This document shows positions 46 to 7,593 of a DNA stretch of 33,796 nucleotides, in pieces; the first letter of the stretch is position 1; every line of letters begins with the position of its first letter. The translations under genes were made by a program, and so were the position numbers. This DNA comes from Nitrospirota bacterium (GTDB taxonomy: Bacteria > Nitrospirota > Thermodesulfovibrionia > Thermodesulfovibrionales > JdFR-85), in contig WGEZ01000138.1 of the NCBI GenBank assembly GCA_015492515.1, positions 1-33,796 on the forward strand, in the 5' to 3' direction. The notes beneath the pieces were generated by a model. That model did not search any database and was not told the DNA's origin. It saw nothing but the letters and a program-made list of their open reading frames with translations.

Positions 46-1308
46 TCAGAAGCCGAACTCCTTCAGCAGCGCATCCACGTCCTCCTGGCTCGAGAGGGCG
101 TCTTCGGACTCCCTGGTCCGGGGTCCCGCGAGCTGCTCCTCGACCTTCTTGGACTCTATCTTGACGCCGAAGACCTTCACAAGCCTTACGAGCTGGGATT
201 CGAGTTCGGCCACGAGGGCTATTACCTTCTTTATTATCTGGCCCGTCAGGTCCTGGAACTCCTGGGCCAGGAGCACCTCCATGAAGTCGCCGTTCATCCT
301 CTCCAGCGACTGCCTCAGGAACCCCATCGCCTCCCTCTCCTTGTCGGCCTTCCTGAGGCCCTTCAGCCTCCTGTCGATCAGGTCGAGCCTCTTGATGATC
401 TCGCTCTGCAGCGAGAGGTTCTTCTCCATCAGGTTGATCGTCTTCTCAGCCGCTTCCTCCGTCCTGGAGATCACCCACTGCAGCTTGTCCGTCGCCTCGG
501 GCATCTCCTCGAGGGCCATGTTCTTGAGCCTCGGATCGATGAGGGTCTTGAACTCGGTGAGGGCGTTGTGGAGGTTCCGGGTTATCTTGCCGATCTCGGT
601 GAAGAGCTCCTTCTCGCCGACCACGGATATCTCCGCAAGGATGGCCTCGGCGCTGTCGAGGTCTCCGCTCGAGAGGGCGTCGAGAAACTCCTGTATATCC
701 GCCATTATCTGCTGGACGACCTCCCTCTCGAGCCCCTTTGATTCCGCCCTGTCGATGATCTCCTCCCTCACCTCTTTCTTGAGATACTCGCCTCCCATAC
801 CTGAGACCTTCCTGGTCACCACGATCCTGCCTTCCTCGGTCCTCTCCGTCTTCACGATGTTGTCCTCGAGCAACGTCATGTCACCGACGGAGAGGAGCCT
901 GGAGAAGTCGATGAGCTGCAGGAGCCTGTCCTCCTCGAGCGTGGCGACGCCCCTGATGTAATCACCGGATGTCTTCGAGATGACGCCCACGTTCTCCCTT
1001 ACGTCCTTCTCCTCGAGGTTCACCACCCCGGTGATGCTGTCCACCACACCGCCTATGGTCATCCTCCCTATATTGACCACGATTATCTTCTGTTCCTGCT
1101 CTCCGTTGCCTCCACTCTCGATGCCGAGCCTCTTCTTCAGCTCGATCACCGGGATCACCTTCCCCCTGAGGTTGATGATCCCGAGCACGTGTTCAGGGGA
1201 CTCGGGGATCCTCGTTGCCGGCACAGGCTTTATTATCTCCTGGACCGCGAGTATCGGGATGGCGTACTCCTCGCCGCCGAGCATGAAGCCGATGTGTTGT
1301 GACGACAT
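46..1308 (-). CDS. CheW-CheZ fusion: N-terminal CheW adaptor domain, C-terminal CheZ-like phosphatase domain
   Basis: N-term 'IGFMLGGEEYAIPILAVQEIIKP...GIINLRGKVIPVIELKKRLG' is CheW-like. C-term 'LLAQEFQDLTGQIIKKVIALVAEL' matches the CheZ active-site helix, and the terminal 'SQEDVDALLKEFGF' matches the CheZ CheY-binding tail. Confidence 0.88.
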   Translation of the reverse strand: MSSQHIGFMLGGEEYAIPILAVQEIIKPVPATRIPESPEHVLGIINLRGKVIPVIELKKRLGIESGGNGEQEQKIIVVNIGRMTIGGVVDSITGVVNLEEKDVRENVGVISKTSGDYIRGVATLEEDRLLQLIDFSRLLSVGDMTLLEDNIVKTERTEEGRIVVTRKVSGMGGEYLKKEVREEIIDRAESKGLEREVVQQIMADIQEFLDALSSGDLDSAEAILAEISVVGEKELFTEIGKITRNLHNALTEFKTLIDPRLKNMALEEMPEATDKLQWVISRTEEAAEKTINLMEKNLSLQSEIIKRLDLIDRRLKGLRKADKEREAMGFLRQSLERMNGDFMEVLLAQEFQDLTGQIIKKVIALVAELESQLVRLVKVFGVKIESKKVEEQLAGPRTRESEDALSSQEDVDALLKEFGF

Positions 1309-1419: not shown

Positions 1420-1446
1420 TAAAGATTTTCAGGCAATGTCCGATAG
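1420..1446 (+). promoter_or_regulatory. sigma28 (FliA)-like promoter for flagellin
   Basis: TAAAGATT-N11-TCCGATAG against consensus TAAAGTTT-N11-GCCGATAA, with canonical spacing. Confidence 0.8.
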
Positions 1447-1603: not shown

Positions 1604-2446
1604 ATGGGTTTGGTCATCAACACCAACATCATGTCCTTGAACGCCCAGAGGAACCTCACTGCGAGCACCAACAAGCTCGCCGTGTCGGTACAGAGGTTGT
1701 CCTCGGGCCTCAGGATCAACAGCGCCAAGGACGATGCCGCCGGGCTCTCCATCTCTGAGAAGCTGAACGCCCAGACCAGGAGCATAGCCGTCGCGATCAG
1801 GAACTCCCAGGACGGCATCAGTCTCGCCCAGGTTGCGGAAGGCGGCCTGCGGGAGATCGGTAACATCCTCGCCAGGATGAGGGAGCTGGCAGAAGAGGCG
1901 GCCAACGGCACCCTCGGCACGAGCGAGAGGTCGGCCCTTGACAACGAGTATGCACAGCTGAAGAGCGAGATCGACAGGATAGCCAACGTCACCGAGTTCA
2001 ACAACATCAAGCTCCTCGACGGATCTCAGAGCGCGAACGGTGTGACCCTCCAGGTCGGGTTCCAGAACACCACCAACGACAGGATAACCTTCTTCTCCGG
2101 CATCGATGCCACCAGCACGACCAAGCTCGGTCTGACAGGGCTGTTCGGTACCATCTCCATAGCCAGTAACGCCCAGTCCGCGCTCACCCAGATCGACAGC
2201 GCCATACAGACGGTGGCTACAAGGAGGGGCACGCTCGGTGCGATCCAGAACAGGCTCGACGCCACCATCGCCAACCTGAGGGTGGAGTCGGAGAATCTGT
2301 CCGCTGCAAACTCCCGCATCAGGGATGCAGACTTCGCCTACGAGACGGCGGTGTTCACGAGGAACCAGATACTGGTTCAGGCCGGCACGGCGATCCTGGC
2401 CCAGGCCAACGTGCTTCCTCAGAACGCCCTCGCGCTCCTGCAGTAG
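1604..2446 (+). CDS. fliC: Flagellin (short, about 280 aa)
   Basis: N-term 'INTNIMSLNAQRNL...SVQRLSSGLRINSAKDDAAGLSISEKLNAQ' and C-term 'ILAQANVLPQNALALLQ' are classic flagellin D0/D1 signatures. Confidence 0.97.
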   Translation: MGLVINTNIMSLNAQRNLTASTNKLAVSVQRLSSGLRINSAKDDAAGLSISEKLNAQTRSIAVAIRNSQDGISLAQVAEGGLREIGNILARMRELAEEAANGTLGTSERSALDNEYAQLKSEIDRIANVTEFNNIKLLDGSQSANGVTLQVGFQNTTNDRITFFSGIDATSTTKLGLTGLFGTISIASNAQSALTQIDSAIQTVATRRGTLGAIQNRLDATIANLRVESENLSAANSRIRDADFAYETAVFTRNQILVQAGTAILAQANVLPQNALALLQ

Positions 2447-2500: not shown

Positions 2501-2854
2501 ATGGAGATGGCGATGATCAATACAAAGGATACACTAATCACAGCGGCCCTTCAGCCCGGAGCGAAGAGCGAGAAGTCCGACGAGACCGAGGGCAGGAGGG
2601 TATCTGAAACAAGCCATCCCGACAGGGGCAGCACGGAAGGCCCGGAGAGGAAGGAGAGGCCCAAGGTACGGCTGAAGAACCACCTGAACAGGCAGATACG
2701 CCTTGAGGTCGACGATGAGCTCCACAGCATCATCTTCAAGCTGATCGACAAGGAAAGCGGCAGGGTCATCCGTCAGATACCACCGGAGGAGTTCATCGAA
2801 CTCGCCAAGAAGATGAGGCAGATGGACGGTCTCCTCATCGATAAGGAGGCTTAG
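2501..2854 (+). CDS. flaG: FlaG-family flagellar protein
   Basis: 'LNRQIRLEVDDELHSIIFKLIDKESGRVIRQIPPEEFIELAKKM' is FlaG-like; lies between flagellin and fliD. Confidence 0.88.
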   Translation: MEMAMINTKDTLITAALQPGAKSEKSDETEGRRVSETSHPDRGSTEGPERKERPKVRLKNHLNRQIRLEVDDELHSIIFKLIDKESGRVIRQIPPEEFIELAKKMRQMDGLLIDKEA

Positions 2855-2856
2855 CG

Positions 2857-4260
2857 GTGTCCGTGATCTCGGGCATAGGGCTCTCTTCAGGGATAAACTA
2901 CGATGAACTGATCTCCAGCCTGGTGGAGCTCCAGAGGCAGCCGATATACATCCTCCAGGACAGGCAGTCCACCTACAACGACAAGATCAGCGTCTACAAC
3001 CAGCTCTCTTCAAAGGTCTCGGCCCTCAAGAGCGCCGCCGACACCCTCAGGACCACCTCCGACTTCTACGCGAAGACCTCCTCTGTGAGTGATTCCACGG
3101 TGCTCGACGTCTCTGTGAGCAGCTCAGCGGACGTGGGGACCTATTCGATATCGGTAACGCAGCTCGCCCAGGCCCACAAGATCACCCACAACACGGGGCT
3201 GAGCGACAAGGACAGCACGACGGTCCTGGCCTCGGGAAACACGTTCCAGTTCACCATAAACGGCGAGACGAAGACCATAACCGCTGCATCCGACCTCACC
3301 CTCGAGGACCTCGCCTCCCAGATAAACAGCCAGACCTACACCGGTACCGTGGAGGTGGAGGCCACCGTGGTGAACACAGGGACCTCGAGCTCTCCGTCCT
3401 ACAAGCTGATACTGACGAGCAACACCACAGGCGCCGACTACGGCATCACCATTGATACGGACCAGTCCATACTCGACCTCACCGACACCCAGGCCTCGGA
3501 CTCTGACTCGGACGGACAGTACCGGGTGGAGCTGAAGGCGGCGCAGGACGCGGTGTTCACCGTCGATACCATGCAGGTGACGAGGAGCTCCAACACGGTG
3601 AGCGACGTCCTGACGGGTGTCACCTTCACCCTGAAGGAGGACGGCTCTTCGGCCACCTTCACCGTATCGAACGATACGGAGACCATAAAGGGAAACATAG
3701 AGGCCTTTGTGAATGCGTACAACGACGTGGTCACCCACGTGACGTCCAACTCCGTCTATGATACGGAGACGAACACGGGAGGTCCCCTCGTCGGGGAGTC
3801 CACATCAAGGAACGTCGTAAACAACCTCAGGAACATCATCATAAGCAGGGTCACCTCCAATCCCCAGGACATGCGGGCCCTCTCCCAGCTCGGCATAGAG
3901 ACCGACTACGAGACGGGCCAGCTCACCATCGACACCTCGACCCTGGAGGACAAGCTCTCCACCGACCTGGACGACGTGGCCACCCTCTTCACCGACAGCT
4001 CCAGCGGTATCGCCGTCAGGATCTATGACACCGCAGACGACATAACGGACTCCATCGACGGCTCCATCGCCATCAGGATAGACGGCCTCGAGACACTGGT
4101 GGACGACGTCAGCGACGACATCAGGGAGATGGAGGAGAGGCTCGAGAGGATGGAGGAGGACCTGAGAAGGCAGTTCGCGGCCCTGGAGATGCTCCTCGGC
4201 GGACTCTCCTCACAGGGAGCCTTCATCAGCAGCATGATGAACAGCTGGGCAAATTCTTGA
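2857..4260 (+). CDS. fliD: Flagellar filament cap protein FliD (GTG start)
   Basis: 'GIGLSSGINYDELISSLVELQRQPIYILQDRQSTYNDKISVYNQLSSKVSALKSAADTL' and C-terminal coiled coil 'MEERLERMEEDLRRQFAALEMLLGGLSSQGAFISSMM'. Confidence 0.93.
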   Translation: MSVISGIGLSSGINYDELISSLVELQRQPIYILQDRQSTYNDKISVYNQLSSKVSALKSAADTLRTTSDFYAKTSSVSDSTVLDVSVSSSADVGTYSISVTQLAQAHKITHNTGLSDKDSTTVLASGNTFQFTINGETKTITAASDLTLEDLASQINSQTYTGTVEVEATVVNTGTSSSPSYKLILTSNTTGADYGITIDTDQSILDLTDTQASDSDSDGQYRVELKAAQDAVFTVDTMQVTRSSNTVSDVLTGVTFTLKEDGSSATFTVSNDTETIKGNIEAFVNAYNDVVTHVTSNSVYDTETNTGGPLVGESTSRNVVNNLRNIIISRVTSNPQDMRALSQLGIETDYETGQLTIDTSTLEDKLSTDLDDVATLFTDSSSGIAVRIYDTADDITDSIDGSIAIRIDGLETLVDDVSDDIREMEERLERMEEDLRRQFAALEMLLGGLSSQGAFISSMMNSWANS

Positions 4261-4278
4261 TAAGATCAGGAGGTAAGG

Positions 4279-4698
4279 ATGCAACAGGCAGCAGAGTACA
4301 GAAAGACGGAGGTGAACACCTCGGACAGGGTGAGGATCGTCTCACTGCTCTACGACGGAGCGATCAATTTCGTGAGGATGGCGAAGAACAAGCTTGACGA
4401 GGGAGACCTGGCAGCCAAGGGGCTCTACACCGGGAAGGCGACGGCGATCGTGGGAGAGCTGTCGAGCACGCTGGACGTGAAGGCCGGGGGTGAGATCGGT
4501 CAGAACCTCAGACGGCTCTACGACTTCGTCATGGACAGGCTCTTCTACGCCAACATGAGGAACGACAGGACCGCCTTCGAGGACGCCGAGAGGGTGCTCG
4601 ACGTGCTGCGCGGTGCGTGGAAGGAGATGGCGGAGAGCAACAGTGAGGCCGGAAGCAGAAGGGAGCTCAACGGCACCGGCATGGAGCTGAGGGTATGA
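4279..4698 (+). CDS. fliS: Flagellin export chaperone FliS
   Basis: 'YRKTEVNTSDRVRIVSLLYDGAINFVRMAKNKLDEGDLAAKGLYTGKATAIVGELSSTLDVKAGGEIGQNLRRLYDFV'; follows fliD. Confidence 0.92.
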   Translation: MQQAAEYRKTEVNTSDRVRIVSLLYDGAINFVRMAKNKLDEGDLAAKGLYTGKATAIVGELSSTLDVKAGGEIGQNLRRLYDFVMDRLFYANMRNDRTAFEDAERVLDVLRGAWKEMAESNSEAGSRRELNGTGMELRV

Positions 4699-5027
4699 GC
4701 AGATCGATCGTCGGGCTCTGCAGCGAACTGCTCCGCCTGGCCGAGGGTCAGAGGGACGCCCTCCTGGCGGGAGACCTCCTCAAGGCCGTGGAGCTTCAAC
4801 AGAGACGCCGGGAGCTTACAGAGGAGATGGCCCGCGCCGGACCGGACGGTGAGGCCTGCCGCGAGGCGGTGGGGCTGCTGGAGCGGGTCCTTAAGGTCGA
4901 CGGCCTCCTGAAGGACCTCGTCCGCGAAGGCCTCAACTCGACCATGGAGAGGATGCGCTCCATCGGAAAGCTCAGGGCCTACCACCTCCATGAACGGAAG
5001 AGGGCCGGCATAAATATAAACGTATAG
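4695..5027 (+). CDS. FliT/FlgN-like flagellar chaperone (helical, 110 aa)
   Basis: Overlaps fliS stop by 4 nt; small helical protein in the usual fliT position; sequence similarity only general. Confidence 0.55.
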   Translation: MSRSIVGLCSELLRLAEGQRDALLAGDLLKAVELQQRRRELTEEMARAGPDGEACREAVGLLERVLKVDGLLKDLVREGLNSTMERMRSIGKLRAYHLHERKRAGININV

Positions 5028-5385: not shown

Positions 5386-7593
5386 TTGCACGACATGGGC
5401 AGGGATTCGGAAACTACGGTAGAGGGGACCGCGGGTCGAACAAAGGCGGATTCCCCGGAAGGGTCGACGGTGCTACCTTCGGTTGAGGATTTAGACAGGA
5501 GGAACTCTGCCGGAGACGCAGCCTACCTGCCTTTTGGCAGGCCCAACTTCTCTGACGAGGAGATAGAGGCTGTGGCGAGGGTGATGCGTACCGGCTGGAT
5601 CGGGATGGGGCCGGAGACCATCGCCTTCGAGAAGGAACTATCCCGTTTCCTCGGTGCACCCCACGTCGTCACCGTCAGTTCCTGTACCTGGGCCCTCTTC
5701 CTCTCCCTCCTCGTCCACGGGATCGGGCCGGATGACGAGGTGATCTGTCCGAGCCTCACCTGGTTCAGCACGGCGAATGCAGCCCTCTACCTGGGGGCGA
5801 GGCCGGTCTTCTGCGACATCGACCCCCACACACTGAGCGTGACGCCTGAGACGATAAAGGAGAAGCTGACCGACCGTACCAGGGCGGTCGTGGTCGTCCA
5901 CATGGGCGGCTATGCGGTGGATGTCGATGAGATCCGGGGCATCCTGCCCGATGGCGTGGCGATAGTGGAGGATGCCGCCCATGCCCTCGGTTCGAGGTTC
6001 GCCGACGGAAGACCCGTCGGCTCATCGGGGAACCTCACCTGCTTCAGCTTCTATGCAAACAAGAACCTCTCGACCGGAGAAGGCGGGGCGATCGCCCTCC
6101 ATGACGGGGAGCTGGCCGGGAGGCTCTGCTCGCTGAGGCAGCATGGATTGGCTGCAGATGCATGGAGGCGTTACAGCAACCCCCGGTGCGCCCTTGTGCC
6201 GGGGCTTAAAGAACTGGGTTACAAGATGAACTTCACCGATCTGCAGGCCTGTATAGGACGTGTCCAGCTGAGGCGTCAGGGCGAGTTTGCCCGGATCAGG
6301 AAGGAGATAGCCCGGCTCTATCACGACGCACTGGATGGCAGGGGTGTAACGTTTCAGAAGGGCTGCCTCGACGACGGTCACTCCAGGCACCTCTTCACGG
6401 TACTGCTGCCCCTGGAGGGGCTCGTGAAGTCGCGGGACGAGTTCGTTCTGGAGCTGAGGAGAAGGAAGATAGGGGCTGCGATCCACTACTCCCCGCTGCA
6501 CCGGATGCCCCACTATGAGAGGCTCTGTTCAACGAGCCTGCCGAACACGGAGTTTGTCAGCCAGAGGATCATCACCTTACCGATCAGCGCGAGCATGGGG
6601 ATCGAGGACGCCCGCCGGGTGCTGGAGGAGTTCACGGAGATCTTAGAGGCCTCGCGATCCGTTACCGGCCGGGCGGGGACCGGCACGATCTCGGCTCCAG
6701 GGTATGTGAAGAGTGACGGCAGCCCGGGGAAGGTCACCAAACCGGTCTTTATCGTAGGCTGCGGCAGGTCGGGAACGACCTTCCTGTTCAACATCATGAA
6801 GAAGCATCCCCGCCTGAGGGCCACGACGGGCTACCCCGACGGTGAGGATCATACAGGCTGGATCAAGCACGGAGGATGCATAATAAGCGGCCTCGGTCAC
6901 GCCCATATCGAGAAGGGCCATACGGGGTATCATTACTGCCTCTACATGGATGAGAAGGACGTAACCCCCCGGGTCGTGGAGTCGATGCACAGGTATTATC
7001 ACGAGGATGTGCTGGGTGGTGACGGCTCAAAGAGGGTGCTGAACAAGTGCCCCCATCTGTCGAACAAACTGAGATATGTGAGGGCGATCTTCCCCGATGC
7101 GAAGTTTATCCATATCATCAGGGACTGTCTGCCCGTGGTCTCCAGCTGGATCAAGATCATGGAGACCCAGCCTCATCTGGTCCTGTACCTGCCTGACGAC
7201 GAGTATCCCTGCCACTGGGTCCTCCCGGCCCCTCCAGATGGAGAGAGGGAGACCGTCTTACGCAGGCATGGCAGGATATTTCCAGGCGGCGGGGTGGAAC
7301 GGCTGGTGGATTACTGGTCGATCGTGAACAGAAACATCCCCCTCCAGCTTCTGGACACCCCCGGGCAGCTGCTGACGGTCAGGTACGAGGACCTCTGCGC
7401 CGATACCGCCGAGACACTGAGACGGATCTGCCGCTTCTGCGAGATCCCTTCATTCGATGAAATCCCTGAGGAGATTTCCATAGACGTCACACTGAACAAC
7501 AACGAAAAGTACAAGACCCATCTGACGGAAGAACAGATCACGGCGTTCTTGAAGCGTTCGGAAGTTACCCGTTCAATATTCGGTTATGTCTGA
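5386..7593 (+). CDS. DegT/DnrJ/EryC1/StrS aminotransferase fused to a C-terminal sulfotransferase
   Basis: N-term 'FGRPNFSDEEIEAVARVMRTGWIGMGPETIAFEKEL...CFSFYANKNLSTGEGGAIALHD' (PLP Lys motif). C-term 'FIVGCGRSGTTFLFNIMKKHP' (5'-PSB-like PAPS motif) and 'FIHIIRDCLPVVSSW' (3'-PB-like). Start may be TTG 5386 or ATG 5395. Confidence 0.85.
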   Translation: MHDMGRDSETTVEGTAGRTKADSPEGSTVLPSVEDLDRRNSAGDAAYLPFGRPNFSDEEIEAVARVMRTGWIGMGPETIAFEKELSRFLGAPHVVTVSSCTWALFLSLLVHGIGPDDEVICPSLTWFSTANAALYLGARPVFCDIDPHTLSVTPETIKEKLTDRTRAVVVVHMGGYAVDVDEIRGILPDGVAIVEDAAHALGSRFADGRPVGSSGNLTCFSFYANKNLSTGEGGAIALHDGELAGRLCSLRQHGLAADAWRRYSNPRCALVPGLKELGYKMNFTDLQACIGRVQLRRQGEFARIRKEIARLYHDALDGRGVTFQKGCLDDGHSRHLFTVLLPLEGLVKSRDEFVLELRRRKIGAAIHYSPLHRMPHYERLCSTSLPNTEFVSQRIITLPISASMGIEDARRVLEEFTEILEASRSVTGRAGTGTISAPGYVKSDGSPGKVTKPVFIVGCGRSGTTFLFNIMKKHPRLRATTGYPDGEDHTGWIKHGGCIISGLGHAHIEKGHTGYHYCLYMDEKDVTPRVVESMHRYYHEDVLGGDGSKRVLNKCPHLSNKLRYVRAIFPDAKFIHIIRDCLPVVSSWIKIMETQPHLVLYLPDDEYPCHWVLPAPPDGERETVLRRHGRIFPGGGVERLVDYWSIVNRNIPLQLLDTPGQLLTVRYEDLCADTAETLRRICRFCEIPSFDEIPEEISIDVTLNNNEKYKTHLTEEQITAFLKRSEVTRSIFGYV

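Follow-up and report, generated by a model that had tools for sequence, protein, structure and literature searches.

The locus described here raises the question of whether a chemotaxis adaptor and a CheY-P phosphatase have been joined in a single protein and, if so, what such a protein would do at the receptor array. It lies in a stretch of DNA of 33,796 nucleotides (the window), in which a previous reading of the sequence alone had recognised, at positions 46..1308, one open reading frame (ORF) carrying a CheW-like adaptor followed by a CheZ-like region, and had proposed that CheY-P dephosphorylation is thereby tethered to the array, giving a spatially fixed signal sink. That reading was silent on the strand. 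The frame, here named cheWZ, runs on the minus strand (46..1308), starts with an ATG, ends with the stop codon at 46-48, and specifies a protein of 420 amino acids.

Domains and conserved residues of CheWZ

When CheWZ was searched against Pfam, both families expected from the sequence-only reading were matched within the one ORF, CheW (PF01584) with E = 1.3e-37 and 129 bits over profile positions 2-135 of 138 (cut-off 23.5 bits), and CheZ (PF04344) with E = 2.5e-43 and 149 bits over the full profile, positions 2-203 of 203 (cut-off 30.7 bits). The two halves were also matched by NCBIfam models, with sub-equivalog scores, and the Pfam search returned no receiver domain (Response_reg) in the protein. 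The CheW domain spans residues 5-140 (889..1296, minus strand) and the full-length CheZ domain residues 234-420 (49..609, minus strand; 1KMI_Z match, E = 4e-16), the two being separated by a linker (residues 141-233; 610..888, minus strand) without a Pfam match. In the AlphaFold model, residues 1-148 adopt the CheW beta fold, and the best PDB matches of this half are CheW chains (Foldseek E = 6.5e-14). Residues 152-181 are poorly predicted and are followed by helices, among them two long ones of ∼58 residues each (259-316 and 322-379), as the CheZ hairpin requires. When the CheZ half was submitted to Foldseek on its own, 1KMI appeared only at rank 48 (E = 0.64); since this ranking is uninformative, the fold and family membership of the CheZ half rest on sequence homology.

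The residues on which both activities depend in E. coli are kept. E24 (1237..1239, minus strand; E38 of E. coli CheW) and R48 (1165..1167, minus strand; R62 of E. coli CheW, within an NLRG motif) are invariant in 28 fusions. The phosphatase active-site motif D353-L-T-G-Q357 (238..252, minus strand; D143 and Q147 in E. coli) lies within the segment already quoted in the earlier reading, EFQDLTGQIIKK; among the fusion sequences covering the site, the aspartate is present in 56 of 56 and the glutamine in 55 of 55. The CheY-binding peptide quoted in the same reading, DVDALLKEFGF, was likewise found in place as residues 410-420 (49..81, minus strand). In alignment, its counterpart in E. coli CheZ is the tail DQVDDLLDSLGF; the peptide is conserved among the fusions, the C-terminal helix of CheWZ ending in GF.

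Judged from the aligned sequences, what is gone from the CheZ half of the fusions is the tip at which CheA-short docks. The hairpin-tip motif D[DE]WF, to which CheA-short binds, was present in none of 51 fusions, and residues W94, W97 and F98 of E. coli CheZ are not conserved in them. Nearly all fusions have 69 or 79-80 residues between the point where the bundle begins and the active-site aspartate, whereas E. coli CheZ and most of the proteobacterial CheZs measured have 90; in nearly all cases the hairpin is thus 10-21 residues shorter than that of E. coli. The tip contacts of E. coli CheZ have been described, and the CheZ of Azorhizobium has a similarly short hairpin without the CheA-short motif, although no CheW fusion has been reported for it (PMC7750401).

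Distribution and genomic context

To delimit the distribution of the architecture, a profile (A1) built from 28 fusions was searched over 396 sampled genomes of the window's phylum, counting as fusions those with a single full-length A1 match that began no later than position 6 and reached the last of the 407 positions (tallied by hand). A one-frame CheW-CheZ fusion was present in 84 of the 396 genomes, 83 in the window's class plus G111 outside it, with stop-free open frames of about 390-485 amino acids. In G252, G347 and G081 the A1 match was split, yet both domains fall within one ORF. Fusions of the same type were also found in G400, G956 and G1090, whose phylum is taken, from the grouping of the sampled genomes, as a second one. 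A survey within the window's order also returned the same unbroken fusion in relatives; the frame, whose integrity in independent assemblies had been left for checking, is therefore intact in independent genomes. With the gene lying 45 bases from the contig end, a frame artefact or a misassembly joining two genes might be suspected, a reading rejected as vanishingly improbable since the same frame recurs in 84 genomes, of which six or more are single-contig assemblies (G027, G030, G036, G129, G191, G321). In Pseudomonadota, no CheW domain was present in any of eleven CheZ genes that have long open frames. In G111, which belongs to a different class, the fusion operon (locus L102) lies on a 10.8-kb contig and may reflect either horizontal transfer or a misbinned contig.

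In the genome from which the window comes, the fusion lies on contig C138 beside flagellar genes: it is divergent from the flagellin gene fliC (1604..2446, plus strand; PF00669 and PF00700), beyond which lie flaG, fliD, fliS and a fliT-like gene (2501..5027, plus strand; Pfam assignments, the fliT-like gene being below the Pfam cut-off). A like arrangement is seen in G006. Upstream of fliC is a sigma-28-like site (TAAAGATT-N11-TCCGATAG; 1420..1446, plus strand); the window contains no other match with two or fewer mismatches. As 27 of 100 shuffled sequences also had a match, the significance of the site is modest and it is given as context only. A sigma-54 scan produced chance-level matches only. 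Farther along, a single 735-amino-acid ORF (5386-7593, plus strand) joins a DegT-type aminotransferase to a sulfotransferase, and belongs to a cluster next to the flagellin gene that also includes glycosyl- and carbamoyltransferases and is possibly devoted to flagellin modification.

In relatives, the fusion gene belongs to an operon with the order HEAT-cheR-REC-cheY-cheA-cheWZ-cheB or a close variant (G027, G030, G036, G170, L005), often adjoining flhF/flhG/fliA (G027, G030, G036, G170), the gene order varying somewhat. The corresponding genes of the window's own genome are on contig C140 (flhA, flhF, flhG, fliA, HEAT, cheR, a receiver, cheY, cheA and cheB; HEAT, cheR, cheA, cheB and flhA identified by Pfam, the remainder read from the sequence), and this operon contains neither cheW nor cheZ. 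Its CheY is identical to E. coli-type CheY at 81 of 128 positions (63%). At most of the loci read, the chemotaxis operon is headed by the gene of a HEAT-repeat protein of ∼470-650 amino acids (e.g. L112, 5623-7461).

The sequence-only reading had also pointed to other CheY-P phosphatases as a check. None was found in the own genome, either as stand-alone CheZ, CheC or CheX or as a FliY/CheC-type phosphatase, and the fusion is its only CheZ. CheX is missing in most fusion-bearing relatives and present in some (e.g. G018, G030, G041, G057). Adaptors are more numerous: the genome has nine CheW domains, along with several CheA clusters, and a stand-alone CheW on contig C84 (L155, 1663-2250) groups in the tree with the CheWs of flagellar operons. 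Since this ordinary CheW is available as well, CheWZ is probably an additional, CheV-like adaptor and not the only one in the array. The idea that it might be the array's sole CheW, suggested by operon order, was dropped on account of the C84 grouping.

Role of CheWZ and alternative readings

Taken together, the evidence makes it likely that, in the flagellar chemotaxis system, CheWZ acts both as an auxiliary adaptor of the array and as a phosphatase of CheY-P. An array-tethered phosphatase is the best reading since key residues are kept in both halves, the docking tip is absent, and the genome has no other CheZ and no CheC or CheX. According to the proposed mechanism, the CheW half would dock between receptor tips and the P5 domain of CheA, as CheW or CheV does, while the CheZ halves would pair as a four-helix bundle, so that each dimer would have two CheW anchors. 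The tail would then capture CheY-P, and its dephosphorylation by the D/Q pair would take place at the array, next to the kinase. The covalent tether would thus stand in for the CheA-short tether of enterobacteria, and would fix the ratio of phosphatase to adaptor. It is also conceivable, with rather low probability, that CheZ dimerisation cross-links the CheW modules in pairs, which would make the phosphatase a structural part of the lattice with an activity gated by receptor state; if so, the array would control both the production and the removal of CheY-P.

The array-tethered sink originally proposed for this locus therefore stands in part. The architecture is real and conserved; its spatial logic is not new, and the fusion is probably not the array's only adaptor. 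In E. coli, too, CheZ is bound in part to the array (PMC2673030), through CheA-short, so what is new is the covalent, adaptor-based tether and not the principle.

The strongest alternative, though still an unlikely one, is that the CheW half functions as no more than a localisation tag, binding receptors or CheA weakly without building the lattice, which would make the protein in effect a polar CheZ. The ordinary CheWs of the same genome, including the one that groups with the CheWs of flagellar operons, would fit such a role, as would the separate CheW found in the same operon in G030 and at L119, and the reversion, tolerated in some lineages, to a CheZ that lacks the CheW half (see below). 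It is not expected of a mere tag, however, that the entire CheW domain be kept with both E24 and R48 (E. coli E38 and R62) invariant in 28 fusions, and the operon of G036 has no other cheW.

Less probable again is that the CheZ half acts mainly as a CheY-docking device rather than as a sink, compensating for the P2 domain missing from the operon's CheA. The CheA encoded on C140 comprises P1, P3, P4 and P5 but no recognisable P2, whose place is taken by 80 residues rich in Pro and Glu, and the CheY-binding tail of the fusion is conserved, as docking would require. Docking alone, however, has no need of the catalytic D and Q, which are invariant; furthermore, P2-less CheAs are common and form the majority of CheAs (PMC10782961), and as far as is known most of them occur without such a fusion.

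Since the genome has several CheA clusters, the fusion might instead serve a chemosensory pathway other than the flagellar one, with pili or some other output, but this is very improbable given that the operon and neighbouring genes are flagellar (flhA, flhF, flhG, fliA, fliC) and that fusion and flagellin strongly co-occur: among 61 genomes, 28 had both, one the fusion only, 10 flagellin only and 22 neither (Fisher p = 5e-8, uncorrected for relatedness). Some of the 10 flagellin-bearing relatives lacking the fusion are incomplete assemblies.

With the array-tethered adaptor and phosphatase as the preferred reading, CheWZ can be set beside known systems. It resembles CheV in having a CheW domain with a C-terminal signalling module and in occurring alongside an ordinary CheW, but the second module of CheV is a receiver while that of CheWZ is a phosphatase family domain. 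FliY and CheC of the Bacillus type also remove CheY-P at a fixed place; unlike CheWZ, they have a different fold and are located at the motor. E. coli CheZ (1KMI; PF04344) shares with the fusion full-length homology, the active-site D/Q pair and the CheY-binding tail, but it is a protein of its own, which CheA-short anchors to the array via W97 and F98 of the hairpin tip (PMC7750401), whereas CheWZ has a shorter hairpin, no tip, and a CheW domain fused on. The placing of a phosphatase within an array component has a precedent in the CheC/CheX-CheA fusions of Leptospirae (PMC10782961), in which a CheY-P phosphatase is also covalently part of an array component, although the phosphatase family is unrelated and the array partner different. 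No description of a CheW-CheZ fusion was found in the open-access literature searched, and the architecture may already be known to database curators.

How the phosphatase is placed with respect to the kinase influences both the CheY-P profile and the response curve; in E. coli, the response of mutants whose CheZ is not anchored differs from that of the wild type (discussed in PMC2673030). The relatives of the window offer a covalent natural solution, with the phosphatase inside the adaptor and the CheA-short anchor missing. The fusion has been kept across scores of species of little-studied swimming bacteria, in which the off-switch is apparently fixed to the sensor array. For annotation, the consequence is that in the window's order CheZ would be overlooked if the gene were labelled simply as CheW.

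Origin and apparent fission of the fusions

In the CheW tree, the CheW halves of fusions of the window's type (F1) form one clade, with the type found in G081/G212 as its sister. Two further types were recognised, F2 in G845/G881, in the same operon, and F3 in G061/G070/G078 (L150-L152), which belong to another class of the window's phylum; the F3 linker is long and, in L150 and L152 at least, Pro/Glu-rich. The CheZ halves of F2 and F3 fall on a different branch from those of the window's type. The trees suggest separate origins for the three fusion types, while AU tests do not reject a single one (p = 0.25 with CheW and p = 0.34 with CheZ for a single clade of all three). Other members of the phylum have CheZ frames of ∼200-286 amino acids, and the one that was read is without CheW. 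In the phylum of G400, CheZ proteins of ∼430-530 amino acids (L129-L139) have an N-terminal region of ∼230 amino acids, with no Pfam match in L129.

The fusion clade also includes two groups of stand-alone CheZ, and a clade of F1 fusions alone was rejected (AU p = 0.0005). One of these groups starts within the old CheW-CheZ linker, and the CheW half has apparently been lost in the two of them. As the fusion appears to have been split to a stand-alone CheZ in some lineages (L123, L124, L125, L127), the covalent tether is not indispensable. These re-split lineages, together with the fusion types that have other linkers, provide natural comparisons for the effect of covalent tethering. At L123, L124 and L154 the stand-alone CheZ has 245 amino acids and starts inside the former linker, and at L123 and L124 its gene lies beside cheY and fliA.
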